From: Symbiodinium natans
Lineage: Eukaryota; Sar; Dinophyceae; Suessiales; Symbiodiniaceae
Assembly: GCA_905221605.1 (NCBI GenBank)
Contig: CAJNDS010002116.1
Coordinates: 547,741 to 611,740, forward strand
DNA length: 64,000 nucleotides
Reading direction: 5' to 3'
Under the pieces are notes generated by a model. It ran no database searches. It was not told the DNA's origin and saw nothing but the letters and a program-made list of their open reading frames with translations. The stretch's first letter is position 1. Each line of letters starts with the position of its first letter. The position numbers were made by a program, and so were the translations under genes. Below, in pieces: positions 711 to 20,300 of this stretch.

Positions 711-2845
711 CTGAAGTCCTTACAGGAGGAGTCGCACCCTCAGGGGTGGAGTGTTTTTTTTGTGGCTTTGGGGTGGCAGGGGTGGAGAGTCTGGCCGCTT
801 GTGGGAGGTGTTAGGGTTTGTAGGCTTTGAAGCAAAGCTTCCACAGTGTCTTGGGGTCGCCCGAAGAACATCTGTTGGCCCTCTCTCGATCCCAAAACCC
901 TATTCGCTCAACCCTGAATCCTAGCCAAAGTCATGACTGGTTACAGCCTTGTTTGAGGTATTCCTAGCTTTCTTCGGACTGCTGTCAGAACTCCAAAATT
1001 TACCTAAACCCTAGACGTCGAGACCCTCGCCTCAGCCCTGAACCCTAAACCCTCCGAGTTTCTACCCCTTCTACGTCTTCACCGCTGTGCGGAAGTTCTT
1101 TTTCTTCTTGGCCGCGGCCCCGATGCCAATCGCTGGATGTCGCCATGAGAAGCTAGGGCGGACTTTTTTGGGATTTAGGGCTTAGGGTGGGTTATAGGGG
1201 TCTTGGCGTCAGGGTTGAGGAAAGCTTGAACACCCCTAAACCCGAAACCCTAAAATCTTAAACCCTAAAATCTTAAACCCTAAACCCTAAACCCTAAACC
1301 CTAAACCCTAAACCCAAAACCCAAAACCCTAAACCCTAAACCCTAAAACCCTAAACTAGGGATGCATCTGCAGGTCATGTGGGACGGCATATGTGTGCGG
1401 TGCCGCTCCGAGGATCCCAAGCGCACGGGGCGGGTCCGCATCCGCGACCTCCTCTCGTCGCAGATCCTCCCGGAGTTGCCCGGGGCCCCAATAATCAACA
1501 CGTAGAACTCAGTGGGCGCCCCTGAAACTTAAGAACCCTGAACGCCCCGGGAAGCTCTAACAACACCCAAAAGAGGACCCTAGGAACCCTTCAGCCCTAG
1601 GAACCGTTAAGCCTCTGAGAGCCCCCCAAAACATTCCTTTAAAGCCCCCAAGAGCAAGCCCCCAAAAAGCAAGCCCCTGTTCCAGGTACGAGCTTAGGCA
1701 GGAGCAGCCCTTGGGCGAGGAGGCGGAGGCCAACTGGTTCAGCAGCCAGTCGGCCCTGAAGGCGGAGCGACTCTGGATCAGTTCTTGGCTTTGAGGGTTT
1801 GGGGCGTTTAGGGTCTGTGATCTGGAACCCTACAAAGGCCTTTGAGGGTTTCTTTTCTTCGGGGTCTCCGCTAACTTCGTTGAGGTCAGCCGACTTAGCC
1901 AGTAGTTGAAAGTAGTTCTTTTCAGGCAGCCCCAAACTCATAACTAACCAACTAACTAAAAGCCTGGGTAGCATCCCTATCCCTGTTAAAAGGCCCCAAG
2001 CAAAAACGTGCCCCCGATAACCCAGGCTAGAGCCCAGCAACAGCAAGCTGTTTTTTGTACTCGTCATAATTGCTGCTTCGTGATGTGCCGTCTAAGCTGA
2101 GAATACGATAACTGCGTTCCTTTGTAGGTGTATGGGGCCTACCTCTTCCTTGACCTCGACCAGCCCAGCACTCAGCAGATCATAAAGACATTGGGTTTTT
2201 GGGGTTGAGGGTTTAGGGTGATGTGGGGTTGAATTGGGTGGGGTTTGGTTTGAGGGTTTTGTAGTGGCCAGAATAGCGGGCCAGTTGCTGGGGGATTCTA
2301 GAACTGCTACAAGAGTTACCGGGAAGCACTCCTGGTGGTCTTTCCGGGTTCCCCTGTTCCCCCTCATCATGCAGAAAGGCCATCATCCCGATGCGGAACT
2401 TGCTCCTAGAAGCTAGTCATGGCAATCTATCTGTTGGGGGTCACTCTTTTGATGGTTAGGGTACCCAGAAAGGGATCGTGGTGCCGAAGAACTGAGAACC
2501 GATCATCTGCTGCAGCATGTGGGACTCGCGGCTAGCATGTGCTGGGTCTGCTGCAGATCCGGGGATGGCGCGTGGGGCGGATGAGCACCTGGGTGTAAAC
2601 CGAAGCTTCAGGCCCTCAGGCCTAAATCCTAAACATTCCTAAACCAAACCCCAGCCCTCAACCAGCCAGAGTCCTGTACTCGCACTAGGCAGGTGCAAGA
2701 GTATTCTTGGACCCTGCAGCGATGCCCCGTTACCCTCAACCCCAAACCCTACGCTTGGAGCTTTGCTGCGGAGGAACGGCATGCTCAACAAAAGCGAGCT
2801 AAGCCGCTTCGGCAGCGGAATGCTGACGGACGTGTTCATAGACAG
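711..2845 (+). CDS. PPP2R3C: PPP2R3C exons, RKFFFFLDP to EF-hand region
   Basis: Six exons: 711-730 (20 nt, LKSLQE), 1059-1110, 1413-1477, 1686-1761, 2128-2162 and 2774-2845. Junctions: 730|GT, 1110|GC, 1477|GC, 1761|GC, 2162|GC, 2845|GC. All acceptors are AG. Joining 1110 to 1413 gives FFFFL then DPKRTG. Joining 2162 to 2774 gives FLDLDQ then NGMLNKSEL, the EF-hand loop region. A longer form of exon 1413 starting at 1374 is open in frame, but it would break the FFFFLDP family motif. Confidence 0.88.
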
Positions 2846-5800
2846 GCCAGAATGTTTGTTCATATTTGCTCTGAAGGTTTTGTGGGTTTTCTCAGGGCCT
2901 GAGGCCTATCAATGCCTATGATCCCTCACCCCGAACAAACCCGAAGCCCCTTCGACCCTTGCAGGGAAGCTCCTTCTCACCCAGCGGTCAGCCGTGCTTC
3001 AGGGTTCGGTTTCGGGTGGCCTGGACGACTCACTGGACGACCTGTAGGTGAGCTCCGAAAGACCTGAGGCCCTCCAAAATCCACTCATGAGGACTCAGGA
3101 TTGAGGGATACAGGGCGTCAGATCACAGGAGTCTCTGCAGGAGTTTAGAGGTCTAGGGCTCCAGCGTCCATAGGGGGCCACTCGCCAGGGTGTTCGAAGA
3201 GTACCAGACCTACCGCGATGCGGAGACTGGCGAACGGGAGATGGTGCGCGCCCTCCCCTTGAGCCCTGAGCCTCATGACCTGAAAGCCCGAAACCCTAGA
3301 CCGAACTCTGAAAGCTTAGAGCTGTACTCTACATGCATTTTGGCGAGTTTGGGCTTGAGGGTTTCAAAACACTGTTGTCGCGAGCTTTTTCAGGGAGATG
3401 GACAGAAGGCCTGCCACTGCCATATCCTGAATTTCAAACCCTAAGCCCTAAACTCTGAACCCTAAACCCTACTAAATCCCTGCAGGAATCCTAACACAAG
3501 AAGCCCGATGTTTAGAACCCTAAGTCCAAGATGAGCATAGGACTACAAGACCTTCCTGGACTTCGTCCTGGCTATGGAGAACAAGAACTCGCCCCAGGCT
3601 TGCTGATCCCGGGCACTGGGAATGTTGGTCGAATATTCGCTTCCGGGCCTTTGCATCCTTCAATCCTAAAATACCTAGAGACCTTACAGACAATAAAACC
3701 CTAAAGATCTAATCCTAGGGAGGAGCCCTGAGCCAGGCCATCCAGTACTTCTGGAAGCTCTTGGACATTCACCACACGGGCTGCGAGGGCCTTGGGCTTT
3801 CTCGATATGGGAGATGGGGTCGAGGGTGGGGTCGAGGGTGTTGCGGCTTTGGAGTTTGTTTGGCTTTTTTGGGTCTTTTGGGTTTGGCGCCTTTCTTGTT
3901 GAGAGGGGGAAAGGGTTCTGTGTGCCATGGTAGCGAAGTCTGAAGTAAAACGTGTGGCAAGCTCGCGAATGTGAGGCCACAGGCCGTCGGTTTTGGCTGG
4001 AGGTATGCAATGCTACGAAGCCTCTTTGCCAGAAGCAGGCCGGTTTTTCGGCCATTCTGTTGGACACAGCAGCGATGTAGCTCCAGTGGCTGGCAAGTGA
4101 GCTCCTGCGGGCGTGTTCGATTTCCCACGGGCAAGGTCAGCTATGGACACTTAAGTTGCTCTGGCTACCGTTATGTCCAGATCGACAAGCAGGGACACTC
4201 TGTGCATCGACTAGTGGCTGCCGCATTTCTTGGCCCTCCTCCGGATCCCACCTGCTGGCAGGTTAATCACAACGATTGTGAGCCTGGAAATAACCACGTT
4301 TCGAATCTGCAGTACGCAACCAATTCCGCGAATCAGAAGCATTCCTATGCCACCAACTCGGGTCGACAGTCAAGCGCTGCCAAGCTGGCGAAAGCGGTCT
4401 TGTGGCGGCCTGTTGGCGAAGAATCTTGGACGTTCTGCCCATCGCAGAGGGAAGCCGCACGCTTGCTTGGCGTCTGGCCATCTGCGGTCCGGATGTGTTG
4501 TTCTGGTTTGATCAATAAGTCGAATGGAAATGGCGTCTGGTACGAGTTCAAAGTAGCTCCGACAGTAGCACCAGGACGACCCTCAGATGAGGTCTGGCGG
4601 CCTGCTCGATATCCAGGATGGTCTGGTGTCATTCCAAATCTATTGGTCAGTAATAAAGGCCGCGTATCCCAAACGAAATCGGAGGCTTTCCATTCTGGCA
4701 CCCGCTCGAGAAGTGGTTATTATGTCGTCACCAGGGTGGGCAGGAAGTTGTATGTGCAGCGCCTGGTTGCAGCCACCTTCCTTGGTCAGCCGCAGTCTCC
4801 AGATCACCAGGTCAATCACAAAGACCGGAACCGAGGTAACAACCACCTGGCAAATCTGGAGTATGTCACCCAGTCTGAGAACATGCGGCATGCTAATGCT
4901 TATGCGCACAGTGAGGGAAAGGCTCCGAAGCCAAGAACTCCCAAGCCGGTTCTGGCCCGTCTCCTGGGAGGCGCGGGATCCTGGCTGGAGTTTGAGTCGA
5001 TCAAGGCAGCGGCTGCCCACACCGGGGTCATTCGGCGCAAAGTCTCCCGCATCTGCCACGGGCTTGACAGCAACGTTTCTTGGGAATTCCGGTTCGCCCC
5101 AGAGGAGCAGCTCCCTGGGGAAGAGTGGCGCCCTGTGGTGCTGGAGGGGGTGAGGCGACCTTCGGGTTTGAAAATGCCCACAGCCGCAGAGGTCATCTGA
5201 GCTCCGCTTGGAACCTTGGAGTTGATTGAAGTGCACATCAGTGCACGTCGCGTTGGAGACGGGCGGCTTGCAGCTGTTGGCGTGGCTGGACTTGGCAGCT
5301 TTGGATTTCGAGATCGGTGCAGAAGTGTAGCCGGTGCCATGTTGGGAAAGCCTGGTAGAGTGAAGGGGCGCAGGCCGATCACGCTGGATAAAGGTTTGGT
5401 CCATGAGCGGAGCGAACTTTACAGTGCCAGGAATCAGAGCAGACTCTTATTATTCTCTTTTTAAGGGTTAGGTTCCCTTCTAAACCTCTTTAAACCTCTA
5501 AGCAAGAAAGGGCACCCGTTTTATTCCTGGGTTTCTCTGGGGCGTAGAGTGTGCCCTGGTACTCTACAGTAAATGATGCGCCGTTTGGATTCGTTCGTGG
5601 GGAGCTGTTGAGCACGTTGCGCCTGTGCAGTATCTTGGGATTGCCGGCATGAACCCTGTATGCTCTAACATCCAGCCAATTCTCAGTGGCTGAAGTGCAT
5701 TGGAATGGATGGCGCGATCTCCTCAAAGGCACCCGGCATGGAAACCCTACAGCCCTGCAAGCCTCTGAGGTATCGACGGCTTCGTCATCAACTACTTCTT

Positions 5801-7816
5801 TCGAGCGATCGTGAAGTTGCTGCAGCCAAAGAGCCGGGCACCCAGCGAAAGGTTCGATTCAATCCCTGGACCCTGCTAGAACACGCTCTTGTTTGCGATC
5901 GTTCCGGTGTGAACCGGCTTAAAACTTACGCATACTCAGATTCATGCCGAGCAAGCATCAGGAGCAGCCATCGCAATGGCAGGCTCAACCCTAAACCCTA
6001 AAACCCTAAAACCCTAAAATCCTAAAACCCTAAAACCATAAAACCCTAAAACCCTAAAATCCTAAAACCCTAAAACCATAAAACCCTAAAACCCTAAAAC
6101 CCTAAAACCCTAAAACCCTAAACCCTAAAACCCTAAAACCCTAAAACCCGTAAACCCTAAAACCCTAAAACCCTAAAACCCTAAAACCCTAAAACCCTAA
6201 AACCCGAGGCCCGGACATCGCCTCGGTGGATGACGTGAAGGCACCTTCTGCCTCCCCCCCCCCCCCCCCCCCCCCAAAAGGGGTCACCAAAATCTACAGA
6301 ATCTCCGCCTAAGGGTTTAGGGTTTAGGGTTTAGGAAGGGCAAATGCCCCCAAGTGTGAGGAGGGAAGAGGTCGAAGCCTCAAGTAGCCCAGAAGCCCGG
6401 AGGATGAGATCTTCGATATGGTCAAGTCCGACAAGCCGGGCACCTCAGGGAGTCCTACGAGACTCCGGAACCAGCAAGAGAGCTCTGGTTCACACTTGAG
6501 GAGTTATATAAGTGGGGATATGAGTATGGTAGCTGTAGATATCGGCGTATTTAAAGTACCAATAAACCACCGGCTTTGCCCTCAGAAGCAGGGGCTCCTT
6601 GGGGTTTCCGCCGCCCTCAACCCCAAAGCGACAGGCAGCCTCGCGCACTAAATCCCGTTTCTTTCTTACAAGTGAGCACCCGACCCTAAAGCTTAAACCC
6701 TAAACAGTGCATCAGATCCCCCAAACTATTGGATCATTAGCCCAGGACCTCCTTTCTCACGCTCCTACTGTTGAACAGCCCCCCCCCCCACCTTAAACCC
6801 TAAACCTTAAGCCCTAAACCTTAAGCCCTAAACCTTAAGCCCTAAACCCCAAACCCGAAACCCCAACCCCCAAACCCTAAACCCTAAACCTAAAACCCCA
6901 ACCCCTAACCCCTACACCCGGTGTCGCGCCTGAGGCCCGGCATCATCACGCAGCAGGACCTCATCCGGTGCCGCCAAGGCGGCACAGTGCTGCCCGGGGG
7001 CCTGGTAGGGGTTTTCGGTTTAGGGTTTAGGGTTTAGGGTTTCGGGATCAGGTTTCAGGGGTCAGGGTTTAGGGTTTAGGGTTTAGGGTTTAGGGGCTCC
7101 CATAGTCTTTCTTAAACCTTTTGGGGGTCTCTGGCTTGCGAGGGGTACCCCGAAAAGGAGCCTCAGTATGATAGGAACCTTAAAAGGGAGCGAGCCATAA
7201 GTTGAAGAGCTGCCCATGGGCTTCTCACCTGTGTGCGTTTTGGGGGTTGGGGTTTGGGGTGCAGGGGCTTTCGGTGGTTCAGTGCTTCAGGGACTTAGTT
7301 CGGGGGGAAACCCTAAACCTCACCTAAGCCGGGCTCGGTCACGGCTTCGGGGCCTTTGCGGGTTTAAGGTTCCGGCAGTTATGGTTGAGGGGTTATAGGG
7401 TTTATAGGGCTTATGGGGTTCATCGGGTTCACAGGCTTATAGGGTTACAGGGTTTAGAGGGCTTAATGGGGCTTTGGGCTTAGGCGTCAGAGCCGCGCCC
7501 CCCCAAAAGACGCTCCAGTCCAGGTCCATGCTCATGGATGCGAAGGCCTTCTGGCTGTACGACAACCGGGAGAACTTCATGCTAGAGCCGGAGCAGGACT
7601 CCCCACCCGCCCCCAAGCACTCCAAAGCCGGACCCTTAGGAAACAAACGCTTGGGTTTAGGGTTCGGGTTTCGGGTTTAAGGTTTAGGGTTTAGGGCTTA
7701 GGGTTTAGGGTTTAGGGCTCAGGGTTTAGGGTTTAGGGCTTCGGGCTTCGGGCGAAGGGTGTGCCGTGCAGGACGAGGGGGACGAAGATGACCTGAGCAC
7801 GCTTTCCAGCGGCTGA
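711..7816 (+). CDS. PPP2R3C: PP2A regulatory subunit B''-gamma (PPP2R3C/TON2/FASS), C-terminal half, spliced
   Basis: Calcium-binding regulatory subunit of protein phosphatase 2A, which acts at centrosomes and cortical microtubules in animals and plants. Exons read as 711-730, 1059-1110, 1413-1477, 1686-1761, 2128-2162, 2774-2845, 3189-3243, 3541-3597, 3737-3788, 5770-about 5824, about 6390-6434, 6935-6988, 7524-7596 and 7772-7816. Reading phase is kept across every resolved junction. The translation follows the family in order: FYVFTAVRKFFFFL, DPKRTGRVRIRDLL, NWFSSQSALK, NGMLNKSELSRFGSG (EF-hand region), DYKTFLDFVLAMENK, INYFFRAIVKLL, DEIFDMVK, IITQQDLIRCRQGGTV, SMLMDAKAFWLYDNREN, and an acidic tail ending at TGA 7814-7816. 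The N-terminal half lies left of the window or is missing. Most donors are GC; that at 7597 is GA. Intron 3789-5769 hosts an HNH ORF. Confidence 0.92.
1228..1356. repeat. CCCTAAA telomere-type array (intronic)
   Basis: About 12 CCCTAAA units with CCCAAAA and CTTAAAC variants, in the PPP2R3C intron between exons 1059-1110 and 1413-1477. It is flanked by unique sequence on both sides, so it is not a chromosome end. Confidence 0.9.
3189..3788 (+). CDS. PPP2R3C: PPP2R3C exons, second EF-hand region
   Basis: Exons 3189-3243 (VFEEYQTYRDAETGEREM, donor GT), 3541-3597 (DYKTFLDFVLAMENKNSPQ, donor GC) and 3737-3788 (AIQYFWKLLDIHHTGCE, donor GC). These follow the family order RVFxE, DYKTxLDFVLALEN, LQYxFKLLDI. 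The intron opened at 3789 contains the first HNH ORF. Confidence 0.88.
4010..5200 (+). CDS. HNH homing-endonuclease-like protein, tandem NUMOD4-HNH modules (copy 1)
   Basis: Single-exon ORF of 396 codons from ATG 4010, also open upstream to 3971. Module 1: NUMOD4-like GWQVSSCGRV, then GYRYVQI and VHRLVAAAFLG, then HNH core QVNHNDCEPGNNHVSNLQYA near residues 84-104. A NUMOD1-like helix-turn-helix segment follows (EAARLLGVWPSAVRMCCSG, WYEFK). Module 2 repeats the scheme: GRVSQ, VQRLVAATFLG, QVNHKDRNRGNNHLANLEY, then IKAAAAHTGVIRRKVSRIC and a final GEEWRPVVLEG, which looks like the start of a third NUMOD4. Paired His and Asn residues of the HNH_3 family are present in both modules. HNH proteins of this type are DNA nickases/endonucleases of phages and group I introns. 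The N-terminus (MLRSLFARSRPVFRPF) is basic and could be an organelle presequence, which is inference. The ORF lies wholly within a PPP2R3C intron. Confidence 0.85.
   Translation: MLRSLFARSRPVFRPFCWTQQRCSSSGWQVSSCGRVRFPTGKVSYGHLSCSGYRYVQIDKQGHSVHRLVAAAFLGPPPDPTCWQVNHNDCEPGNNHVSNLQYATNSANQKHSYATNSGRQSSAAKLAKAVLWRPVGEESWTFCPSQREAARLLGVWPSAVRMCCSGLINKSNGNGVWYEFKVAPTVAPGRPSDEVWRPARYPGWSGVIPNLLVSNKGRVSQTKSEAFHSGTRSRSGYYVVTRVGRKLYVQRLVAATFLGQPQSPDHQVNHKDRNRGNNHLANLEYVTQSENMRHANAYAHSEGKAPKPRTPKPVLARLLGGAGSWLEFESIKAAAAHTGVIRRKVSRICHGLDSNVSWEFRFAPEEQLPGEEWRPVVLEGVRRPSGLKMPTAAEVI
5201..5769. other. Remainder of HNH-bearing intron
   Basis: No telomere-type array and no exon supported by the family alignment. 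It ends at the AG acceptor before exon 5770. Confidence 0.5.
5770..7816 (+). CDS. PPP2R3C: PPP2R3C terminal exons
   Basis: Exons 5770-about 5824 (IDGFVINYFFRAIVKLL), about 6390-6434 (DEIFDMVKSDK), 6935-6988 (PGIITQQDLIRCRQGG), 7524-7596 (SMLMDAKAFWLYDNREN) and 7772-7816 (DEGDEDDLSTLSSG stop). The acidic C-terminus matches the family style. Ends of the first two exons are approximate. The 7596/7772 junction is GA-AG: both sides read CAG|GA, so the exact break is ambiguous by sequence. Confidence 0.88.
5987..6206. repeat. Octamer variant array (CCCTAAAA)
   Basis: About 25 units, mostly 8 bp (CCCTAAAA) instead of the 7-bp telomere unit, with variants ATCCTAAAA and ACCATAAAA. A block with the variant motifs is repeated, which suggests local block duplication. 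It is followed by a poly-C run (6257-6275) and a short TTTAGGG run (6312-6335). Confidence 0.9.
6791..7095. repeat. Telomere-type arrays flanking a PPP2R3C exon
   Basis: CCCTAAA-type words at 6791-6915 precede exon 6935-6988. TTTAGGG-type words at 7018-7095 follow it. This places a C-rich array before the acceptor and a G-rich array after the donor. Confidence 0.85.
7641..7745. repeat. TTTAGGG array before last PPP2R3C exon
   Basis: About 13 TTTAGGG-like units with GGGCTTA and GGGTTC variants, in the intron between exons 7524-7596 and 7772-7816. Confidence 0.85.
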
Positions 7817-10800
7817 CCCTTTCCCGGCGTGGAAGCGCGGGATGACCCAGAGGTGGGGGGGGGGGTTGCTCCGTCTTTCCTCCCATGCCCCGACGCCTAA
7901 GCCCTAAACCCTGAGCCCTAGACCCTTTCCTATCCCCTAAACCCTGAACCATAAACCCTTAAACCCTAAACCCTTAAACCCTAAACCCTATATCAGCCCT
8001 AAAAACCCTCAAACCCCTAAATCCTTAAATCCCTAAGTTCCCCCCCCCCCCCCCACAGCTTCTTCCACCGAGTGCCTCCGAAGAGCGGCGCGCCTTGGCT
8101 CTCGCCGAGGGCGCCTTTGCCAGAGCGAGGCTCCTGAGCCAGGGACCTTTTTTTAGTTTATCTTTTATCTATATATGTATATAAGTATCGTTTTTTCAAC
8201 AACTTTTTTGCATATTTGTTTGGGTTTAGGGTTTAAGGGGTTTAAGGGGTTTAGGGATTTTAGGGGTTTTAGGGGTTTAGGGGGTTCTAGGGGTTTTAGG
8301 GGCTCGGGCTTCGGTTTCAGGGCAGAGGGCTTAAGGGTGTTGGGGTTTAGGGCGGGCACTCAACCGCTGACGGGGGGTTCAGTGTTTGGGCTTCTTCGGG
8401 TTGGTCTACGGAAATGGAGGGTTTGTAGGTTTGTTTTGGCAGCTTGCAGATCCCTGTCTCTTTTTCTAGACTGGAGGGCTTAGCGTCCTTCTCCGCCTGT
8501 TGGGCACTTTCCGCAGATGCAGCCCTCCATTAGGGAGGGGTGTAAGGGTCCCTGAGACGTCAACATCTGTGCTGTCACCTCGCATTGCGAATTTCAAACC
8601 CCCAAGCCACAAGCAACTCTGGACCCTAATTCCCCCGACAACCCCATGTTCTCCCCACCCAAACTCCCCTACTCGGATGTTCATCGGCAGGTACACGAAC
8701 GGATATCTTTTGCGACAGCTGGTTCACGGGTAATCCTGACTCGGTAAGAATAAGCCCCCCCTCCCCCCCCGCGGCCCCTGACTACTTCTTACAACCTCTC
8801 GTAACCCTGCTTGTGCCTGCCCAAAGTAGATATGGGCCATGGATAGGGACCCCCTGAACCCGAAAAGCCCCCTCTGAATCGCATCTTGGGGACCCTTTCA
8901 GAGATGTAGATAGTCAATTCGGCTCATGCTTCTTTGCCGGAGGGAGGATCGGGCGTCCGAGCTCGGGTGAGGAGAACCCCCAAGTCAGAAAGACCTCGAA
9001 GGCCCCAACCTGAAACGGTCAAAGTCCTGGCCAGGGCCTAAAACCTCCAAAACCCAAAACACAAAAGCCCCAAGCACTAGACCCTGAAACGCCAAAGCCT
9101 GAAGCTTTTCAGGCTTCGCTCTCTCATGACAAAACTATGAATGGAGTAGAATGACAGAGGTGAACAAGAGGGAGAGAGAGAGAGAGAGAGCTTGAATGCG
9201 ACAGAGGTGATGAGACATGAAGGTGTCGTCAGAATCTTTTGGTCTTAAGCCCTGAATCCTCAACCTTCCTCTAGGCCATCAAGCCCAAGGACTGCTGGGA
9301 TGCCTCAGCCACCTCTTACCGAAACACAACCCTGAAACCCTTAACCCTCGGCCCCAAGTCCTGAACCCTCTTCGCTGGGCCCAGCAATTTTGAAACCCGA
9401 TCCCCAAACCCTTGGAACCCCCAAACCCGTAGAACTCCTAAACTCTAAACCCTTGGAACCCCTAAACCCATAGAAGCCCTAAACCCTCAACCCTAAACCC
9501 TAAACCCCAAACCCTAAACCCTAAACCCTAAGAACCCCCTGCACCCTAAACCCTATGCCCTTTTGGAACACCCCCCCAGAGTACACCCCAGGCTCCGCCT
9601 TCCTTCCCTCCACGTTAGGCACAGTGGGGATTTTCAATCTCGCGTAGTCCTGCCTACCGGCCTTCAGTGGACGCCACCGGTCTGTGACACTCGCGTAGGC
9701 TCCGCGCTCTTTTAGGCTCCATGCTCTTTCTCAAGCTCAGACTCTAGTTCTTTGGCTTGCTAGCTATTTCAGACGTAGTATCGTGGGTAGGACAGCTACA
9801 CGGTTACATCCATTCTTATATCCGCATTTCAGCTACGAGGCGTGCTGCTTCGGGGCACCTAGAAAGTTAGTGTCTTTGGGGCAGTTGGGGGCCCTGCTCC
9901 AGCCCAAGACCCTAGACCCTAGACCCTAGACCCTTAAACCCGCAACCCGAAACCCGAAACCCTAAACCCTAAACCCTAAACCCTAAACCCTAAACCCTTG
10001 ACCCCGACAGCTTGCTTAAGAGGAAAGCCTAGGCTAGCTATCTTGGCGCGGAGCCCGCGGGTGCCAGATGCGGAGGGGAGGACGCCAAACTGACTGAAGG
10101 TCATCAAGCCTAGGACAGCCGTCGAGCTTGAGAAAAAGGGCCGAAGGGAGGGTGGGATGGGGGGGGGGGGGGGGGGGGGGGGGAGGCCGAGGGTTTAAGA
10201 CTTAATTAGGGTTGCTTGCTGGTTGTTGGTAGGGTTACAGGTACCCCAAATGAAGTTATATGAGTGGATATCTTGCGTTCTTGACTAGTTATGGGTTTGG
10301 GTTATGGTTTCCATTTTGCAGTTACCGTGCTTTGCGAAACGGCTATCGAAGTCTCCAAACACCAGACCTGGTGTGTGACGAGACCTTCGTGTGGTTTAGG
10401 ATTTAGGGTTTAGGGTTTGATGCGCAGCTCTGTGCTGGTACAGAGCTGTGCCTGGGGCCTCAAACCTCCAACCCTGCAGCCCAAATCCTTTGATCTTGCT
10501 ATTCCCCAAAGAGCAAAACCCTCGTCCCGCAATCACCAGAACTCCTGAGCTGTAACCCCAAACTTAAACCCAAAACCCAAAACCCCAAACCCAAAACCCT
10601 AAACCCTAAACCCTAAGCCCTAACCCCCCCTCCCCCTTGGGCGCAGGTCGTGCAAGGCCCAGGCGTTGGACTCGGACCCAAGGCCCCCCTTTGCACAGCT
10701 CCGGGGCCTTGGAGGGTCTCAGGGGTGCTTAGGATTCTTAGAGGTTGAGGGTTCTGGGGCTTTGGGGTCAAAAATTTTATCAGAATGTTTTGGGTTTCAA

Positions 10801-12481
10801 AATGTAGGGCTTGCTGGTTTAGAATGTTTGTTTGTTGTTTTTTGTGTAGTGTTGTGTGCATTAGGCTTTGGGTGGGTTTAGTTGTTTAACGGTTTTTTTC
10901 CTACAGCCTCCTCCGGCCCCTAGCACCAAGCAAAAACCCAAAGTCTCTCCAAGCCCGCCAGCCTGTTGACTCTCAGTCAACAAGCCCCAAACCCCAAACC
11001 CTAAATTCTAAACCCTGAACCCCAAGCCTTAAACCTGCCGACTGTCTGGGCTTGCCCTTGATTTTTGAACCTTTTGTTGTTTTTTGTGTTTTGGGTTTTG
11101 TACGCCCCAAGGCCCTTAAACCCTTAACCCCCTGTGAGCCCCCTGCACCCCTTAACTCACCAGCCTTCTAAGCAGCAACCGCAAGCCCCTCTCAAATTAC
11201 AAGGTCCGTCGGCCCTAAGCCGTAAACCCCAAACCCACTAAGCCCCGTAACCCTAAACCCTGAACCCTAAACCCTGAACCCTAAACCCTAAGCCTAAACC
11301 CCCAAACCCGAAACCCTAAACCCCAAGCCCGAAACCCTAAACCCACCGAAGCTGCCGCAGGCGGTTAGCTTGCCCAGCCTCTTCCAAGAGGTGCCCAGCA
11401 AGAGCCATGCGCAAGCGCGGGGGGCTCGGCTGCTCTAGGAGTCCCGAGCTTGAGGGCAAAGACTGAGCGGGGCTTTTGGCTTAGGGTTTAGGGCCGTTTA
11501 GGGCTTAGGGCTTGGAGCTTAGGGCTTAGGGCTTAGGGTTTAGGGTTTAGGGTTCACGGTTTATGGTTTAGGGTTTAGGGTTTAGAGTTTAGGGGTTTAG
11601 GGGTGTAGGGGTTTAGGGGTTAAGGGGTTTGGGGGTTTCAGGAGTTTCGGCTTTTAGGGTTCAGGGCCCAGTGTTTTCCAAGCACTTGAAATGTTGAGGG
11701 GTTGAGTTTGCTTGAAGGTTCATCGGACTTTGTAACGACTCATAACTGGGCTTATGACTTACTTAAAATCCCTCGAACTGGAGCTACTTGGGTTACCCCA
11801 CTCAGAAGTCGGGTTATAAGCCCTGTTCTAAGTAGCTACTCAGGAAGCACGCTTCATGGGTCGTTCCCACCCAATGTTTCAACCCCAAACCCTAAACCCT
11901 AAACCCCAAACCCTAAACCCTAAACCCTAAACCCTGCACACACCCCGAGCGCTGCCTAGGCGGCTCGGCTATCCGCCCAGCGGCGAGGCCCGCGAACTGC
12001 AGTTTCTGCTTTTAGGGTTTGGGTTTTGGGTTTAGGGTTTAGGGTTTAGGGTTTAGGGTTTAGGGTTTAGGGTTTAGGGTTTAGGGTTTAGGGTGTAGGG
12101 TTTAGGGTTTAGATGGGTTTAGGGTTTAGGGTTTAGGCCCCAAAACAGGTTGGAAACCTTTTTAGGGACAAATGGCGCTGGGATTCCCCATACTGTAATA
12201 CTTTACTCTTAGTGATTGAGGCTATTGAGTTTCCAACTTTTTGGCTTCTACTCTAAGGCCCAAAAGTTCATGTTCAGGGACCTTCGGGGTTTGGGGTTTA
12301 TAGTGGCTGGTTTGCCGGGGCTTCGCTCAGGCTAAAGTCCTAAACCCTAAATTCTGCAGGCAGTTCTCTAAATTTGGATCCCTCTTGGGTCCTTGTGAAG
12401 CGGGTGCCGTATTATATAGAACCCAAAAGGGACCGAAATTTTGAGAGTTACCAACATCTCCTCCTGAATCGCACCCTGCAG
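7817..12481 (+). other. Repeat-rich interval with weak exon candidates between PPP2R3C and HYDIN
   Basis: Telomere-type arrays fill much of this stretch: C-rich 7904-8000, 9340-9560, 9908-10008, 10560-10622, 11215-11345 and 11880-11938; G-rich 8219-8350, 11480-11660 and 12010-12137. There are also poly-C (8040-8055), poly-G (10158-10184) and GAGA (9170-9190) runs. Short exon-like pieces after an AG are at about 8057-8137 (SASEERRALALAEGAFA), 10645-10700 (SCKAQALDSDPRPPFAQ), 10907-10970 (PPPAPSTKQKPKVSPS) and 11353-11430 (AVSLPSLFQEVPSKSHA). They could be poorly conserved HYDIN N-terminal exons or another small gene. I cannot place them. Confidence 0.4.
11480..12137. repeat. TTTAGGG and CCCTAAA arrays in opposite orientations
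   Basis: G-rich 11480-11660, C-rich 11880-11938 and G-rich 12010-12137, the last with about 16 nearly perfect TTTAGGG units. The complementary arrays lie within 400 bp of each other. Confidence 0.88.
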
Positions 12482-14335
12482 AAGCAGTCGATCAAGCGGA
12501 CGCCCAGTCAGCTGCTGCTAGAGAAGCAGGAGGCGGTCGATGCTGCCAGGGAGGGTTTGGGGGGGCGACTTGAGGGGACGTTTGTGGTTTTCAGGGGCTA
12601 GTTAGTGTGCAGAGTTTGACCGATTTCTGTAGATTTCTCTACTCCCGAATGGGTAATCGTTGAGACGTTGTAACTGAGTACTAAGGGGCGATAGTAATAT
12701 TTGGGGCAAGTCCTCACGACCCTACATGTAACTACCCATGAACCTTCAAGAGCCCCCTCTGCCATGTTACCCCAAAGCCCCCCAGAACCCCCTCAAGCTA
12801 CCCAGAAAACATCTGAGTACAGCGACCCCATGCATCTCCCAGAAGACCCTACTAGGATCCAGTTTCGGTCCTCCCTGATAAGAGGCCCTTAAGGGGCACC
12901 CTCCCTGTTCCCACTTTACTCTTGGATCCTGCACTTCAAAACCTCTCCGCCGCCAGTTCAGCCTGGTTCAGACGGGCGTCCTCGCGAAACCCAAGTGCGC
13001 CCGGCGGCGTCTTGCACTCTTCGGCCCTGGCCCTTCTTTTTTCTTTTTGGGATGCAATCTGGGTTTGCTGTTTTGGGGTGTCTTGTGGGCTTTCCGGTTT
13101 ACAGGCCCGTTTTTGCTGCCCCCAAGTATCTTACACAGCTTGCTGCCCTCAGCCGCCTTAGCCGCCTTAGCCGCCTTAAGAGTTCTTCCTCTGAGCCCCC
13201 TAAACCCTAAACCAAACCCTAACACCCTACACCCTACACCCTACACCCTAAACCCTAAACCCTAAACCCTAAACCCTAAACCCTAAACCCTAAACCCTAA
13301 ACCCTAAACCCTAAACCCCCCCTGGCCAGGATTACAGGGTTTCACGACATCGCCCGGTTCTCGAACCACACCACGCCTGGCCCCCTGGGAGCTTCGCAGG
13401 GTTGAGTCGTTGAGGGAGCACACAGAGAGCCCTTTAACCTTAGTAGCTGAGTGAGTACACTTTACACTTTTTTGGGATAACATAATATAATCTCTACAAA
13501 ACTAAAAGTGTACACTTTTTGGGGGCTTATGAACTCAGCAACTAAGTAGCATAGGAGCTCCCTGTTGTCGTGAGCCCCCGTGCTCAGGTCGGTGGTGCCG
13601 ATCGACGTGCCGCTCTTTAGGCATCTCACGGATCCCGACATGCCTTGCGCAGCACGTGCGTCAGGGCTCTTCACTCTTGAGGGTTTAGGGTTTGGGGTTT
13701 TGGGTTTAGGGTTTAGGGTTTGGGGTTTAGGGTTTAGGGTTTAGGGTTTAAGGGTGGAGGAGGGAGACCTTCAGGAAGCCCTTCCTGAGTTCTTGCACAC
13801 CTCAACATCTCATTTGGACGCTTTCCATGCCCCTCTGCAAGTCGGCGCCCGAAGTCCTAAACCCTGAAGCCCCAAACCCTGGGACCCCCTGAACCTGAAG
13901 CCCGAAACCCTAGAACCCTTAAGCCCTGAACCCTAAACCCTGCAGCATGTAGTCCCCGAGCCTCATTTGATCTGATTCGCAGTGTGCATCCGCCTGTCAT
14001 CGCCTTCGTCGAGTTCGAGGGCCTCCAGACGTATGAGGCCTGGAGGGGGCTTTGGCTTTGGGGTTGGGGTGGATTCAGCTTCCAGCCAAGTGTGGGTGTT
14101 GATTCTAACTCCTCGCCGCAGACCACGGTCACGCTCCGAAACATGGACAACGTCGCGCGGCGGGTCAAGGCAGGGGGATCTGAGGGAGTCCCGGCCCCCT
14201 GAACTTGTCAGATGTGGGCTGGGCTTCAGGTCAACGGGAGCAACTCGCTTCACCAAGCGGCAGAACTCCTGTCAGGTATGCCCACCTGACAGTCCATATT
14301 TCGAGCCGGAGCCTCAAAACGACTTTGGACGCCAG
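12482..14335 (+). CDS. HYDIN: HYDIN exon cluster 1, first ASH domain
   Basis: Exons 12482-12550 (KQSIKRTPSQLLLEKQEAV), 13588-13620 (SVVPIDVPLF), 13983-14037 (VHPPVIAFVEFEGLQTYE), 14122-14169 (TTVTLRNMDNVARRVK) and 14276-14335 (SPYFEPEPQNDFGRQ). Junctions 13620|GC, 14037|GC and 14169|GC keep phase. The text follows human HYDIN from the TPSAY segment through ILRNNDRVPRLVK to SPYF. At least one exon between 12550 and 13588 is unassigned, because the phases do not meet. The donor after 14335 is not a standard dinucleotide, so that end is approximate. Confidence 0.82.
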
Positions 14336-17300
14336 GGGAAGCCTACAGATGTTCCAGGCTGAATGCAGAGCCCAAATCCTAAACCCTGAACTCTTAAACT
14401 ACCCTGAACTACCCTGAACTACCCTGAACTACCCTACACTACCCTACACTACCCTAAACTACCCTGAACTACCCTGAACTACCCTAAACTACCCTAAACT
14501 ACCCTAAACTACCCTAAACTACCCTAAACTACCTAACCTAAACTACCCGAAGCTCCCAAACAAACCCCAATCTCTATTCCTACAACCCTAGAGGCCCAAA
14601 AGCGTCAGACCCCTGAGCCACCCGCCGATTCTTCGCGCCACGACGTTCCGAGGCTCCTGCCCGGCCGGCGCGTAGCCAAGTGTGGCGCCATAGCAACGAC
14701 GGACGTTGGCAGAGACAAGGCTGGGCTTAGGGTTTAAGGCTCAGGGCTTCGGTGTTAAGGGCTCAGGGCTTGGGGTTGAAGGCTTATATAGGAGGGTTGT
14801 TTTGGGGCTGCAGCAGTGGCAGTTTTTTTCAACGAGGGCCCTGCATCTCGTGACATTTTTGTGTGCAGGGCGTGTAGGCTTCAGCCGTGGCAGGTGGCTC
14901 CCGGCATGGAGGTCTCCTACGTCGTGCGGTTCAAGCCCGACGCAAGGCCTCGGCGGGGCGCTTGAAAAAACCCTATTCCCCGCAAAACACCCAAAAACTC
15001 TTAAACAGCCAAAAAAAGCTAAAAACCCTAAAGCTCTAACACATCCCTAAAGACCCACAAAACCCTAAGGAGGAGTTCTCGGTCTCAGAAGCCCTATGAG
15101 CACTCCCCTGGCAGGCTAGACTACAGCTACGACCTCAAAGTCGTCGGGGCCTTGGTTCCTTGCCATCGGCTTGTCCTCTCTGTATAAGAAGGAGTATACT
15201 CCGTGATAGAATTTAAAGAGTCCACAGTTGTGCGGTACAGTTGAAGTAGATCTCAGATGGAAAGCACTCTAAAATGGAGACCTGGAGACCCCAAAGGGGC
15301 GATAATTGAGACTAAACCCCGCACCTGTCCTTGAAGTCGGAGCGCTGGGTCAAGCTGCCGAGGTCACAGAAAGGGAAGAGTTCAGGCGCCGCACCTGAGA
15401 GTTGAAGCACAGAGCGGATTCCCACAACCCTCAACCCTGGACCCTAACTTCCTCGGCAAGCCCAGAGCTTGAAAATCCGGGCCTCCTTCGGACCCCCTTG
15501 AGCCCGAGTCCACTCTGCGAAAGCCGGCAAGCCCTTTCTGGGTTCTTGTGAAGCAACTCAAATTATCACCTCACCACAGTGAGGAAACCACAGTATTGAC
15601 ATCCATACCCTGCTAGCTGAATTGCACATCCTTAACAGCAGCCCTGTTGAGTCCCACGCCAACCCCGGTCTCCTATCTAAACACTAAACCCTAAACCGTA
15701 AATCCTAAATCCGAAACCTTAAACCCGAAACCCTAAACCCTATAAACCCCCTAAACCCTAAACCCCTCAATGCCCTGCAGTGTGCCTGTCCGGGCCTCCG
15801 GCGGCTCCGCCCTCCTGGACTTCCCGGACGCCAGGGGCGCCCAGTTCGAGGGAGAGGGTGTTTAGGATTTAGGGTTTAGGGCCGTTTAGGGTTTAGGGTT
15901 TAGGATGTAGGGTTTAGGGTTTAGGGGTTTAGGGGGTTGAGGGTTTAGGGTTTAGGGTCAGGGCTTGGGGTTTTGAATCCCTTTCGCTTGGTCGAGGGTT
16001 TCGGGCTTCATGGTGTGTGTGACTTGGGGTGGGGGTTAAGGCCTCTAAGAATCTTTGCTTTGGGATGTTATGGTTTCAATTTCTTGCCCTTCTCGGCGGA
16101 TGAGCAAATGTGGGATTCGGGCTTTAGATTGGGATAACAGATGCGAGAATGGCTAGACATCTTTGTGTACCCTTGTTCATAGCTTTTTACAGATTGCTGC
16201 TAGTGCTGGAGGGACGCATGCAGATGGAGTCCTGACATTCGAGACGACGCCGAGGTGGTAGACTTTGGCGACGAGTGCATGGTTGGCCACAAGGCCAAGC
16301 TGGCAAGCTCGAGGGCTCATTTAATTCAAGATTGATGGTGCCTCATGCGGGATGGAGGGCTTGGAGGAGGAGTTGTATGGAGATGCCGCACTGTCCTGGA
16401 ACTAAATGCAGCTCAACATGCCAGCAGTCCACAATCATGGCTGTCCAGAACCCCTATGCACGTCATCATGACAACGCTTGTGCTCTGGCCGTTCCCCAAT
16501 CGGGGCACCCGGTCCTTGGAGCATGACCCAACCCCCAGCTGCGTAGAGTATGGAGTTTTCGACGTCATGGAATATGCAGCAAGCCTTATCATACCCCCCC
16601 CCTAATGTCTAAGCTCCGGTCCTCGCCCCCTGGTGCAGTGCGAGCGCACTGTGCTCGTGCGCAACGTGGGCGACCGAGCCTCCAAGCTACTCTGCAAGAC
16701 CACCGCGCCCTTCAGGTGCGCTCGGGAGGGCTGGCGGGGGCAGGATGCCATTTAAGGGTTTGAGGTATGTATTTCACTCCATCCAATCAGGAGGGATGTG
16801 ATTCCATTTTGTTGCTGTTTTGGGTGGCACTTAGAGGATAGTCCAGTCGAAGCCAGCGACGAGCATGTTGGGCCTGCTGCAGCGTGGGGATCAAACATGC
16901 GCTGCATCGGCCACTTCTTCAGGCGGCCTTGGCCGCTTCACCTTGACCTTCTGCAGGTGCGAGGGACCTCGAGTGGCTGGCAGGTCAGCTCGCATGGCCG
17001 TGTTCGAAGTTGTGTTGGCCGGGTCAGTTTCGGGACCATGCACGCCTCCGGATACCGCAGGGTACGAATTTCAGGACAACCTATTTATGTCCACCGGCTG
17101 GTGGCTGCTGCATTCCTTGGCCCCCTCCCACATCCAAACTGCTGGCAGGTGAACCACTTGGACCTCAACCCCAGCAACAACTGCGTAGCAAATCTTCAGT
17201 ATGCAACTCCTGCGGAGAATCAGGTACATGCTTGGGCCACCAACCCGAGCCGACAGGCAAGTGCTGGCAAGGCTGTCTTGTGGCGGTCCTGCGGTGAAGA

Positions 17301-20300
17301 GTCCTGGACGTTTTGCTCATCGCACAAGCAGGCTTCAAAGCTGCTGGGTGTTCGGCACGAGGCAATCTCAAAATGCTGCCATGGCTTGCAAAGGAAGTCC
17401 CAGGGCAATGGTACTTGGTACGAGTTCAGGCCACCCCCTGCAGACCAGTCGCTGCTACTTGGGGAGGTGTGGCAGTCTGCGCGGTATCCAGGAGATCATG
17501 GAAGGATTGAGAACCTTTCGGTCAGCAACCATGGCCGGGTTGCACAAGACAGGCGCCACTTCACAGGGGCCAGCTACGGCACTCGCCTGAGTACTGGGTA
17601 CCATGTTGTCATCAGAGCCGGCAGGACCTTGATGGTTCACCGGCTGGTTGCTGCGACCTTCCTCGGTGATCCGGCGTCACCCGATCACGAGGTCAACCAC
17701 AAGGATGCCGATCCAGGGAACAACCATGTGCAAAATCTAGAGTATGTCACGCGGTCTGAGAACATGAAACACTCGTGGCAGCTAAGGCCGAAAGCCTTGC
17801 GCAAGTCGCCCAATTGCAAGGCCGTGCAGGCTCGTTTGATCGCGGAGGACTCTCCTGAAGCGCCTTGGCTGGACTTCGACTCGATCGTTGCAGCGTCGGC
17901 GCACACCGGCGTCCACAGTGCCACAGTCTCCCGCATCTGCAGGGGACTCCAGGGCAGTGCGTCCTGGGAGTTCCGATTCTCTGTGGAGGAGCAGCTTCCG
18001 GGCGAAGAGTGGCGCCCTGTGGTGCTGGAAGGCGCACGCCGACCTGCACACCGACGTGCACGCTGAGCCTTGAGATTCGTTTTTTGTCTGCAGCCTTCTT
18101 CTGAGAGGCTGATTGACCAGGTGGGCTTTGCACTGGCTATTGTGTGGCAGGTCAGGTTGCTTCGAGATGGAGCGCCAGGCGTGGACATTCCTGCAGGCTC
18201 TAGACCGCGCCGTGGCGCCTGCATGTTGTGTCTGCAAGGCAAGAAAATATGCAGACAAGGTACTGTGGACGGGTGAGCTCGGGAGATCAAAATTGTCATG
18301 GAGTTGCTGAAGTGTGTGGACAGGAAAGGCAAGGCGACGTGGCCGAAACAGAGTCCACTTTGGCACTGCTCAAAATTCTGGGGGCTTCCCGAAATTAGGG
18401 ATCCTTTTAAGGGAGGCCCCACTATACTTGGGGCTTTACAAGGGACCCTAGCGGCACGAGCCCTTTGAGAACCTTGCCACCCAGAGCCGCCTCACGGGTC
18501 AACTCCCAGCTTCCACAAAGATTTCCGGAGCCTCCCTCTGGGTTTCTGGAAAGCTTCAGGGATTCAGGGGTTGCAGGGTTGAGATGAAGATGCAGATTTC
18601 GGATCCCTCCGCGGCATCTAGCGTGCGAGCCGCCCACACCGTGCGGCCACGGAGAGCTTTCTGCGGCTTCTGACATGATGCATTTTGTTTCGGGAAAAAG
18701 AATCACTGCAGCAAAGTGCCAGCTGCCTGGCCGCTTTGCCTGGACTTCGTGGCAGTGGCGATGGACCTGTGACTGGAAGGTGAGCTCTTGCGGACGCGTT
18801 CAGAACTCCTTTGGTAGGATCAGTTATGGCACATTGCTTGACTCAGGCTATCGCAGCGTGCATATCGAGAAGCGAAACTACCTCGTGCACCGGCTGGTGG
18901 CTGCAGCGTTTCTGGGCCCTGCGCCAGATCCGAGCTGCTGGCAGGTGAACCACGTGGACTGTGATCCCGCAAACAACCAGGTGAGAAATCTGCAGTATGT
19001 AACCCATGGGCAAAATCAGAAGCATTCTTGGGCAGCAAACCCCAGCCGACGTTCAAAGATTTCAAATGCTGCCATGTTGAGCAAAGCCGTTTTGTGGCGG
19101 CCCTGTGGAGAAGAGTCTTGGACATTCTGCGCTTCGCAAAGTGAAGCTGCAAGGCTGCTGGGTGTTCCGCAAGGAGCGGTATCAAGCTGCTGCCGCGGCT
19201 TGCAGCTGAAGTCGCGTGGTGGTGGTGTCTGGTACGAGTTCAAGCCGGCTGCAGCAGATTCCTCCGCAGATCACTCGCTGTTGCTCGGAGAGGTCTGGCA
19301 GCCCGCACGGTACCCAGGACGTCGTGGAAGGATTGAAAACCTTGTAGTCAGCAACCATGGTCGGGTTGCGCAAGAGATGCAAGGGAGTTGCAATCCAGCA
19401 GACATGCATCGTGGCACGCGCATGAGGAGCGGCTACTACATTGTAACCAGGGCTGGCAGGAGTTTGTTTGTGCACCGGCTGGTGGCTGCGACCTTTCTTG
19501 GTCAGTCACCATCGGCAGATCACCAGGTCAATCACAAAGACTCGAATCGCGGAAACAACCACATTCAAATCTGGAGTATGTCACGCCGGCTGAGAACATG
19601 CGGCACGCGTATGCGCAGCGTGTGGGACAGGATCCGAAGCCAAGAACCCCCAAGCCGGTGCTGGCCCGTCTCCGGGGAGGCGACGGATCCTGGCTGGAGT
19701 TTGAGTCGATCAAGGCAGCGGCTGCCCACACAGGGATCAATCGGGCCAAGCTCTCCCGCATCTGCCACAGGCTTGACACCGCCATTTCTTGGGAGTTCCG
19801 GTTCGCGCCCGAGGTGCTGCTGCCGGGCGAAGAGTGGCGCCCGGTGGTGCTGCAGGGCGTGAAGCGACCTTCGAGTTGAGCGCCACTGAAACCTCAGGGC
19901 TGGTCAATGTCACCACCATCGGACCCCCCTCGACTTTGATTCCGTGCCCTTCTTCCGATGTTTTGTGCAGCGTTGTGCAGGTTGAGGTCCGCATCCAGAA
20001 TTGCAACTGTGCACGACAGTCCACGCGCGAGCAGTACTAACCATCCAAATCAAGCCGTGCTAGTAACTCGACATGCCGACCTCAACGTCCCTTAAGGAGC
20101 CCTAAACCTAAGCCTAACCTGTAAACTCTAGGCCCTCATCCCTAAAACCTAAGCCCCAAACCCTAAGCCTTCCTTCGCTTTCTCTTTTCCTCTCTTTGTC
20201 TCTCCCCTCGCCAGCATCGAAGTGCCGGACGGGTTCCTGGAGGAGGGCGCCGCCTGCCAGGTGCGTGGAGATCAATTCTTGTTAATGATCTCTTGTTTTA

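Follow-up and report, generated by a model that had tools for sequence, protein, structure and literature searches.

A phage-type HNH endonuclease family with copies nested in spliceosomal introns of nuclear genes of Symbiodinium natans

I-HmuI, an enzyme from a group I intron of a phage, was the only PDB match (1u3e) to the HNH family described here and is labelled there an HNH homing endonuclease. Residues 13-171 of its 174 align with unit two in the profile of the family (E 5.5e-21). The S. natans proteins differ from it in having two fused units and an added basic N-terminus and in residing in spliceosomal introns. Like I-HmuI, they combine the HNH_3 catalytic motif with NUMOD/HTH parts. 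HNH_3 scores over its cut-off, and NUMOD4 and the I-HmuI_NUMOD-like part score below theirs. The predicted protein probably nicks DNA at specific sequences. Among 80 viral loci examined, 1 had both modules in a single frame; a looser pattern, which recovers a module pair in 18 of the 20 S. natans copies, was used for this count. A stricter pattern found a module at 3 of the 80 viral loci.

Shintrons are spliceosomal introns of mirusviruses that carry HNH and GIY-YIG genes. They were described in November 2025 (PMC12768974). According to that paper, which reports them in viruses, there was no earlier sighting of such endonucleases in association with spliceosomal introns. The S. natans introns resemble shintrons in holding an HNH gene and in having no group I or II signature. 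Shintrons are viral, lie mostly in virion morphogenesis genes, and have target-gene specificity, whereas the S. natans hosts are the cellular genes PPP2R3C, HYDIN, and a NadD-like gene, with related copies in unrelated hosts.

In Polarella glacialis, 6.5-8.4% of genes are intron-nested and full-length transcripts support the nested genes. The passage describing them gives light-harvesting proteins as examples and names no endonuclease family (PMC7245778), whereas the S. natans genes form an HNH family. Intron-borne endonuclease genes also occur in nuclear rDNA (PMC9548176); those sit in rRNA genes, within group I introns, whereas no ribozyme was found in the S. natans HNH introns. The original prediction knew of no described system of this kind. 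That claim needs amending, given the mirusvirus introns and the common nested genes of Polarella. The S. natans arrangement is best read as a cellular variant of an already known one, new as such.

HNH genes in the PPP2R3C and HYDIN introns

The window is the whole 64,000-nucleotide stretch of S. natans DNA that was analyzed. It contains the following features.

1060..3782, + strand, PPP2R3C exons 5' of the insertion (matched pieces, coordinates approximate: 1060-1116, 1413-1478, 2128-2163, 2766-2846, 3187-3243, 3541-3600, 3734-3782)
3783..5769, + strand, PPP2R3C intron with ORF1 (GC-AG, 1987 bp)
4010..5200, + strand, ORF1, tandem HNH protein of 396 aa, intact (HNH_3 modules at ~4202-4336 and ~4751-4888)
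5770..7599, + strand, PPP2R3C exons 3' of the insertion (matched pieces, coordinates approximate: 5770-5834, 6202-6240, 6933-6992, 7525-7599; 6403-6438 by reading)
16639..16715, + strand, HYDIN exon before the insertion, by homology (CERTVLVRNVGDRASKLLCKTTAPF)
16716..20214, + strand, HYDIN intron with ORF2 and ORF3 (GT-AG, 3499 bp)
16897..18066, + strand, ORF2, intact, encoding a tandem HNH protein (HNH_3 modules at ~17086-17226 and ~17632-17766)
18675..19879, + strand, ORF3 (L011), tandem HNH gene, frameshifted (HNH_3 modules at ~18879-19019 and ~19467-19565)
20215..20550, + strand, HYDIN exons after the insertion (pieces 20215-20260 and 20491-20550)

The open frame of ORF1 spans 3944-5200 with its first ATG at 4010, and that of ORF2 spans 16756-18066 with its first ATG at 16897. 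The frame of ORF3 spans 18588-19862, with an ATG at 18675. It breaks near 19,570, and a second frame continues to 19,879. This frameshift is either a pseudogene feature or an assembly error. The three ORFs are paralogous and intronless, and all are in the sense orientation relative to the host gene. Each contains two HNH_3 stretches (E 6.5e-19 in ORF1, 2.5e-21 in ORF2, and 4.4e-19 in ORF3). NUMOD4 fell short of its cut-off in both ORF1 and ORF2, and for ORF3 it was unlisted. The original prediction of three paralogous ORFs with duplicated HNH modules on the host strand is thus borne out. NUMOD4, which it also named in these modules, stayed below cut-off or unlisted, and ORF3 is not a single intact frame.

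The prediction also placed these genes within spliceosomal introns of unrelated nuclear genes, and homology of the flanking exons confirms this. The PPP2R3C gene starts upstream of the window. When spliced, its exons align with PP2A B'' subunits (best E 6.8e-9) across the position of ORF1. A transcript-like protein, P0153, which derives from a contig of 1,459 bp, is collinear with the PPP2R3C exons and lacks ORF1, which falls between residues 258 and 259. A genome search with this protein gave 13 hits, all 13 on the window's contig and from one PPP2R3C locus. No empty (ORF-free) PPP2R3C paralogue was found in the S. natans genome. The HYDIN exons flanking ORF2 and ORF3 join into a single repeat with a match to HYDIN (E 9.8e-14).

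The HNH family across the genome

The S. natans genome contains 20 tandem-HNH genes, and two protein queries recovered the identical 20. The HNH_3 profile found 40 stretches genome-wide, 39 of them inside these genes. Three contigs, which make up 0.6% of the assembly, hold 16 of the 20 genes, and the genes run in one direction within each (9/9, 4/4, and 3/3). Two copies are broken: L011 (ORF3) has the frameshift, and L009 has an in-frame TGA. With these two left out, 18 copies gave 153 pairs, and the four closest had dN/dS values of 0.33, 0.25, 0.24, and 0.30. By this sequence measure, purifying selection acts on the closest pairs. In 88 rows hand-picked from 120 listed relatives, the HNH motif residues show little or no variation in either module. 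A complete MMETSP transcript ORF is known for one relative (P0106), from another organism.

A duplicated NadD-like gene, the third host, holds four further HNH genes in two of its introns. The original prediction had called for mapping of every genomic copy. Of the 20 copies, 7 could be placed in introns, all on the sense strand; they occupy four different positions in introns of three host genes. These are all seven assessable copies; a copy was assessable only with host exons recognized on both sides, which favors intronic copies and leaves 13 of the 20 outside the assessment. Intron residence may not be general, because those 13 are unplaced relative to introns. The edges of the introns around the seven copies are GT/GC/GA-AG. 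The intronic copies are complete genes inside an intron of a multi-exon gene, and 7 of the 20 share with shintrons the feature of an endonuclease gene inside a spliceosomal intron.

Hosts of the other copies were sought in several ways. L016 has Methyltransf_16 exons downstream on the same strand, and no upstream host exons were recognized. Because the exons are ~60 bp, a frame-wise Pfam search missed even its PPP2R3C control. A custom exon chainer predicted too many host genes, with 10 of 27 chains having no Pfam family over cut-off. A paralogue search with 8.5 kb of flanking DNA was swamped by a repeat.

It is highly improbable that the ORFs are alternative host exons or assembly artefacts. 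A public S. natans gene model (P0002) joins ORF1 with the frameshifted part of ORF3. The join coincides with a repeated stretch, and the model appears to be mispredicted. The HNH ORFs have their own starts and stops, and homologous transcript-derived proteins read across the PPP2R3C and NadD-like junctions without an HNH ORF. The layout is also repeated, in two host copies and across three host genes.

The copied unit and the spread of copies

We compared six HNH-bearing introns outside their ORFs. The single match was 18 bp long, between the two NadD-like host duplicates. The ORFs of these duplicates, unlike their introns, are ~76% identical in DNA. An origin of the introns from introners would leave a common repeated sequence, and the 18-bp match was all that the six introns gave. 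An Rfam scan of window positions 3700-20300 plus L030, L031, and L033, at E up to 5, found no intron family; the L017 intron was split by the L030/L031 boundary. The genes in these introns are not group I intron homing endonuclease genes, as the introns have no ribozyme signature and have spliceosomal-type edges. The copied unit is the gene and not the intron, because beyond the ORF the introns have hardly any sequence in common and lack a group I or II signature, and related ORFs have unrelated hosts.

No empty NadD-like paralogue was found in the S. natans genome. By parsimony, both NadD-like insertions are older than the host duplication. They are therefore old residents.

The original prediction proposed homing into introns as one of two routes. 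In a nuclear, shintron-like form of it, the HNH protein would nick ORF-free alleles at its own site and the gene would be copied in by repair as a selfish drive, with the spliceosome removing the cost. The match to I-HmuI and the HNH genes in mirusvirus spliceosomal introns (PMC12768974) favor it. None of ORF1's 120 listed relatives outside S. natans's own copies exceeds ~60% identity, versus ~80% for the host proteins over the joined exons, as turnover predicts, but this ceiling could also come from fast evolution alone. Against homing, the closest HNH relatives reside in different host genes, and their introns have almost nothing in common. Target-gene specificity of the endonuclease type is absent: the PPP2R3C and HYDIN copies (the C1804 trio) form one clade (97/93), and others lie in the NadD-like gene. 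The insertions were retained through a host duplication, the closest gene pairs show purifying selection, and the genes form local clusters instead of occupying cognate sites. We find homing unsupported and consider it unlikely. A related reading, quite unlikely, is a dinoflagellate nuclear endonuclease system of cellular shintrons, perhaps derived from a nuclear virus, that uses introns of housekeeping genes as safe sites and homes between alleles or strains.

Incidental nesting is a further alternative. The family would be stand-alone and locally duplicating, would hit introns only as a large share of a gene-dense, unidirectional genome, and its location would be meaningless. The nested fraction of all Polarella genes (PMC7245778) fits this, as do the 13 unplaced copies and the clustering by contig. 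The intronic, sense-strand placement of all seven assessable copies, although a biased sample, speaks against it, and we regard it as distinctly improbable.

A probable maintained family of nested genes

The family is probably a selection-maintained, locally duplicating family of nested genes that are possibly organelle-targeted. Each HNH copy would be a nested gene with its own mRNA, most simply made through trans-splicing of a spliced leader and polyadenylation, both within the host intron. The separate mRNA would leave the host unharmed. New copies would arise mainly by local DNA duplication and would travel with the host gene when it duplicates. Retroposition is unsupported; no spliced-leader relic was found upstream of the HNH genes (best, 4 mismatches in 15). 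The R-rich, acid-poor N-terminus is a weak hint of organelle import, most likely into the mitochondrion. The hint comes from composition, because N-terminal hydrophobic moments do not exceed those of shuffles (mean fraction of shuffles with at least the observed moment, 0.44; 3 of 100 at ≤0.05).

S. natans is a marine alga related to coral symbionts. It contains a small phage-type endonuclease family, with several members intron-nested in ordinary nuclear genes. If the products do enter an organelle, they would be candidates for organelle DNA maintenance. With members of such a maintained family inside spliceosomal introns of conserved cellular genes, a culturable alga becomes a place to test nuclear homing and residence at 'safe sites'.

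HNH genes nested in the PPP2R3C and HYDIN introns

The window (C1804:547741-611740) is part of a 759-Mb assembly. It contains three plus-strand ORFs with two HNH_3 modules each, in the following introns.

3783-5769, + strand: ORF1, in a PPP2R3C intron with GC-AG splice edges
16716-20214, + strand: ORF2 and ORF3, in a HYDIN intron with GT-AG splice edges

The spliced PPP2R3C exons flanking ORF1 match PP2A B'' subunits in a single alignment. P0153, a transcript-like protein from a 1,459-bp contig, is collinear with the exons on either side, and ORF1 falls between its residues 258 and 259. The exons flanking ORF2 and ORF3 build one HYDIN repeat. The original prediction placed the HNH ORFs inside PPP2R3C and HYDIN introns, and the exon alignments, the P0153 mapping and the splice edges bear this out. 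The anatomy of the nested HNH genes is confirmed. The prediction of three single-exon ORFs with duplicated modules holds for the HNH modules; the third ORF is frameshifted near 19,570. GC-AG and GA-AG introns are usual in Symbiodiniaceae (25 to 74%, according to passages of PMC11453091).

The public S. natans protein P0002 is 99% identical to ORF1 across 71% of ORF1. Its beginning corresponds to ORF1 and its end to the frameshifted portion of ORF3; the join falls on a repeated VNHKD motif and bridges about 14.6 kb (window 4010-19860). It is probably a chimeric prediction. Telomere-like CCCTAAA/TTTAGGG arrays were seen in many window introns, such as at 6000-6200 and 12000-12140 (26 kb inspected).

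The family in the genome and its NadD-like host

Two protein queries of the genome retrieved an identical set of 20 genes. HNH_3 marks 40 stretches in the genome, 39 of them inside the 20 tandem genes. The only one found beyond these stands alone on C2298 (324160-324294, in an 83-aa frame). Three contigs, 0.6% of the assembly, carry 16 of the 20 genes. Family members share one orientation within each of these contigs; the four NadD-like copies do not count as independent cases here. Two of the 20 copies are broken (L009 and L011, the latter being ORF3). The TGA in copy L018 is the gene's own stop and not a break.

All seven assessable genes of the 20 are intronic and on the sense strand. They occupy four different intron positions, spread over three hosts. 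The sample is biased toward intronic copies because assessment needs host exons recognised on both sides.

The third host is present on C1854 as two tandem gene copies with 22 collinear islands of 38 to 141 bp. A 23rd match lies off the collinear line. Over 277 codons (14 ungapped islands, frames chosen, one gapped island dropped), amino acid identity is 89% and dN/dS is 0.14. This host is NadD/NMNAT-like. The first exon joining gave no match in a Pfam search, and the refined joining gave PF01467 (E 7.5e-4, 20.1 bits, just below the cut-off of 21). All five PDB matches are NaMN adenylyltransferases, yet with E of about 0.3. P0122, a complete MMETSP transcript protein, is collinear with both host copies. 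The HNH copies occur in identical order in both.

C1854, L015/L013: HNH copies in one NadD-like intron with GA-AG splice edges
C1854, L018/L017: HNH copies in another NadD-like intron with GC-AG splice edges

Two other features were observed on C1854. A 348-bp repeat (312572-312919) has at least 39 similar copies on other contigs at 87 to 97% identity, a lower bound from 40 of 1660 candidates scored. The repeat is MITE-like, with GCGGGTAGGTTAA and TTAACCTACCCGC as inverted repeats at its two ends. Downstream of HNH copy L020, and on its strand, is a long open frame (234713-235861, 383 aa as scanned). Its likeness to phosphatidylinositol phospholipase C is faint, with a Pfam E of 0.3 that falls far short of the cut-off.

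Selection, age and the copied unit

The closest family pairs are under purifying selection, with dN/dS of 0.24 to 0.33 for the four closest of 153 pairs (18 copies). In 88 rows hand-picked among the 120 relatives listed, the HNH residues vary little or not at all in either module. The NadD-like HNH pairs have dS of 0.71 and 0.80. The host islands have dS of 0.42, an underestimate because they were picked for similarity. By parsimony, the NadD-like insertions would be older than the host duplication.

With the ORFs set aside, six HNH-bearing introns have nothing in common but one 18-bp match (E up to 1). Copies L007 and L010 (dS 0.39) share the ORF and less than 200 bp per side. The unit that is copied is therefore the gene and not the intron. 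The short post-stop stretch shared by L007 (C1:413589-414953) and L010 (450646-452014) ends at CTTCGAAG, followed by GTGAGT. This looks like a good splice donor, which may point to an intron in the 3' UTR or to a host exon close by.

Relatives, proposed mechanism and prior art

I-HmuI is the sole match of a PDB profile search, and nearly all of it aligns with the second unit. The three proteins tried in PHROGs fall among phage HNH endonucleases. Among 5.8 billion proteins searched, 386 relatives were found. The 120 listed include one complete MMETSP transcript ORF, and those named are from Symbiodinium species and Prorocentrum cordatum. The best listed relative of ORF1, own-genome copies set aside, is about 60% identical, whereas host proteins reach about 80% over joined exons. 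This fits turnover or fast evolution. There are at least 497 viral relatives. Among the best 80, 59 have an HNH module by pattern, and only L045 (IMGVR_UViG_3300029267_002747) has two in one frame. L045 may represent a viral equivalent of the fused two-module architecture.

The HNH genes would be expressed from their own mRNA by spliced-leader trans-splicing. The protein would nick DNA, and it may be imported into an organelle. At the N-termini (n=100), R is 0.116, K is 0.017, D+E is 0.032 and the net charge is +3.55; D+E is 0.082 in the protein body of the 20 own copies. In these 100 sequences, N-terminal amphipathicity is no higher than in shuffles.

We observed nesting, purifying selection, local clustering and ORF-sized homology. 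Homing of the HNH genes is possible but unproven; related copies reside in unrelated host genes, and a genome search for an empty paralogue of PPP2R3C or of the NadD-like gene found none.

Passages of PMC12768974 report 171 mirusvirus HNH genes in spliceosomal introns, named shintrons, an association unobserved before according to its authors. In Polarella, 8.4% and 6.5% of genes are intron nested with full-length transcripts (passages of PMC7245778). A paper on endogenised polinton-like viruses in the dinoflagellate Oxyrrhis (PMC12721341) mentions HNH endonuclease twice. No description of an HNH family in dinoflagellate introns was found among the titles and abstract starts listed from the open-licence literature. 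The arrangement is already known, and its cellular form is new.
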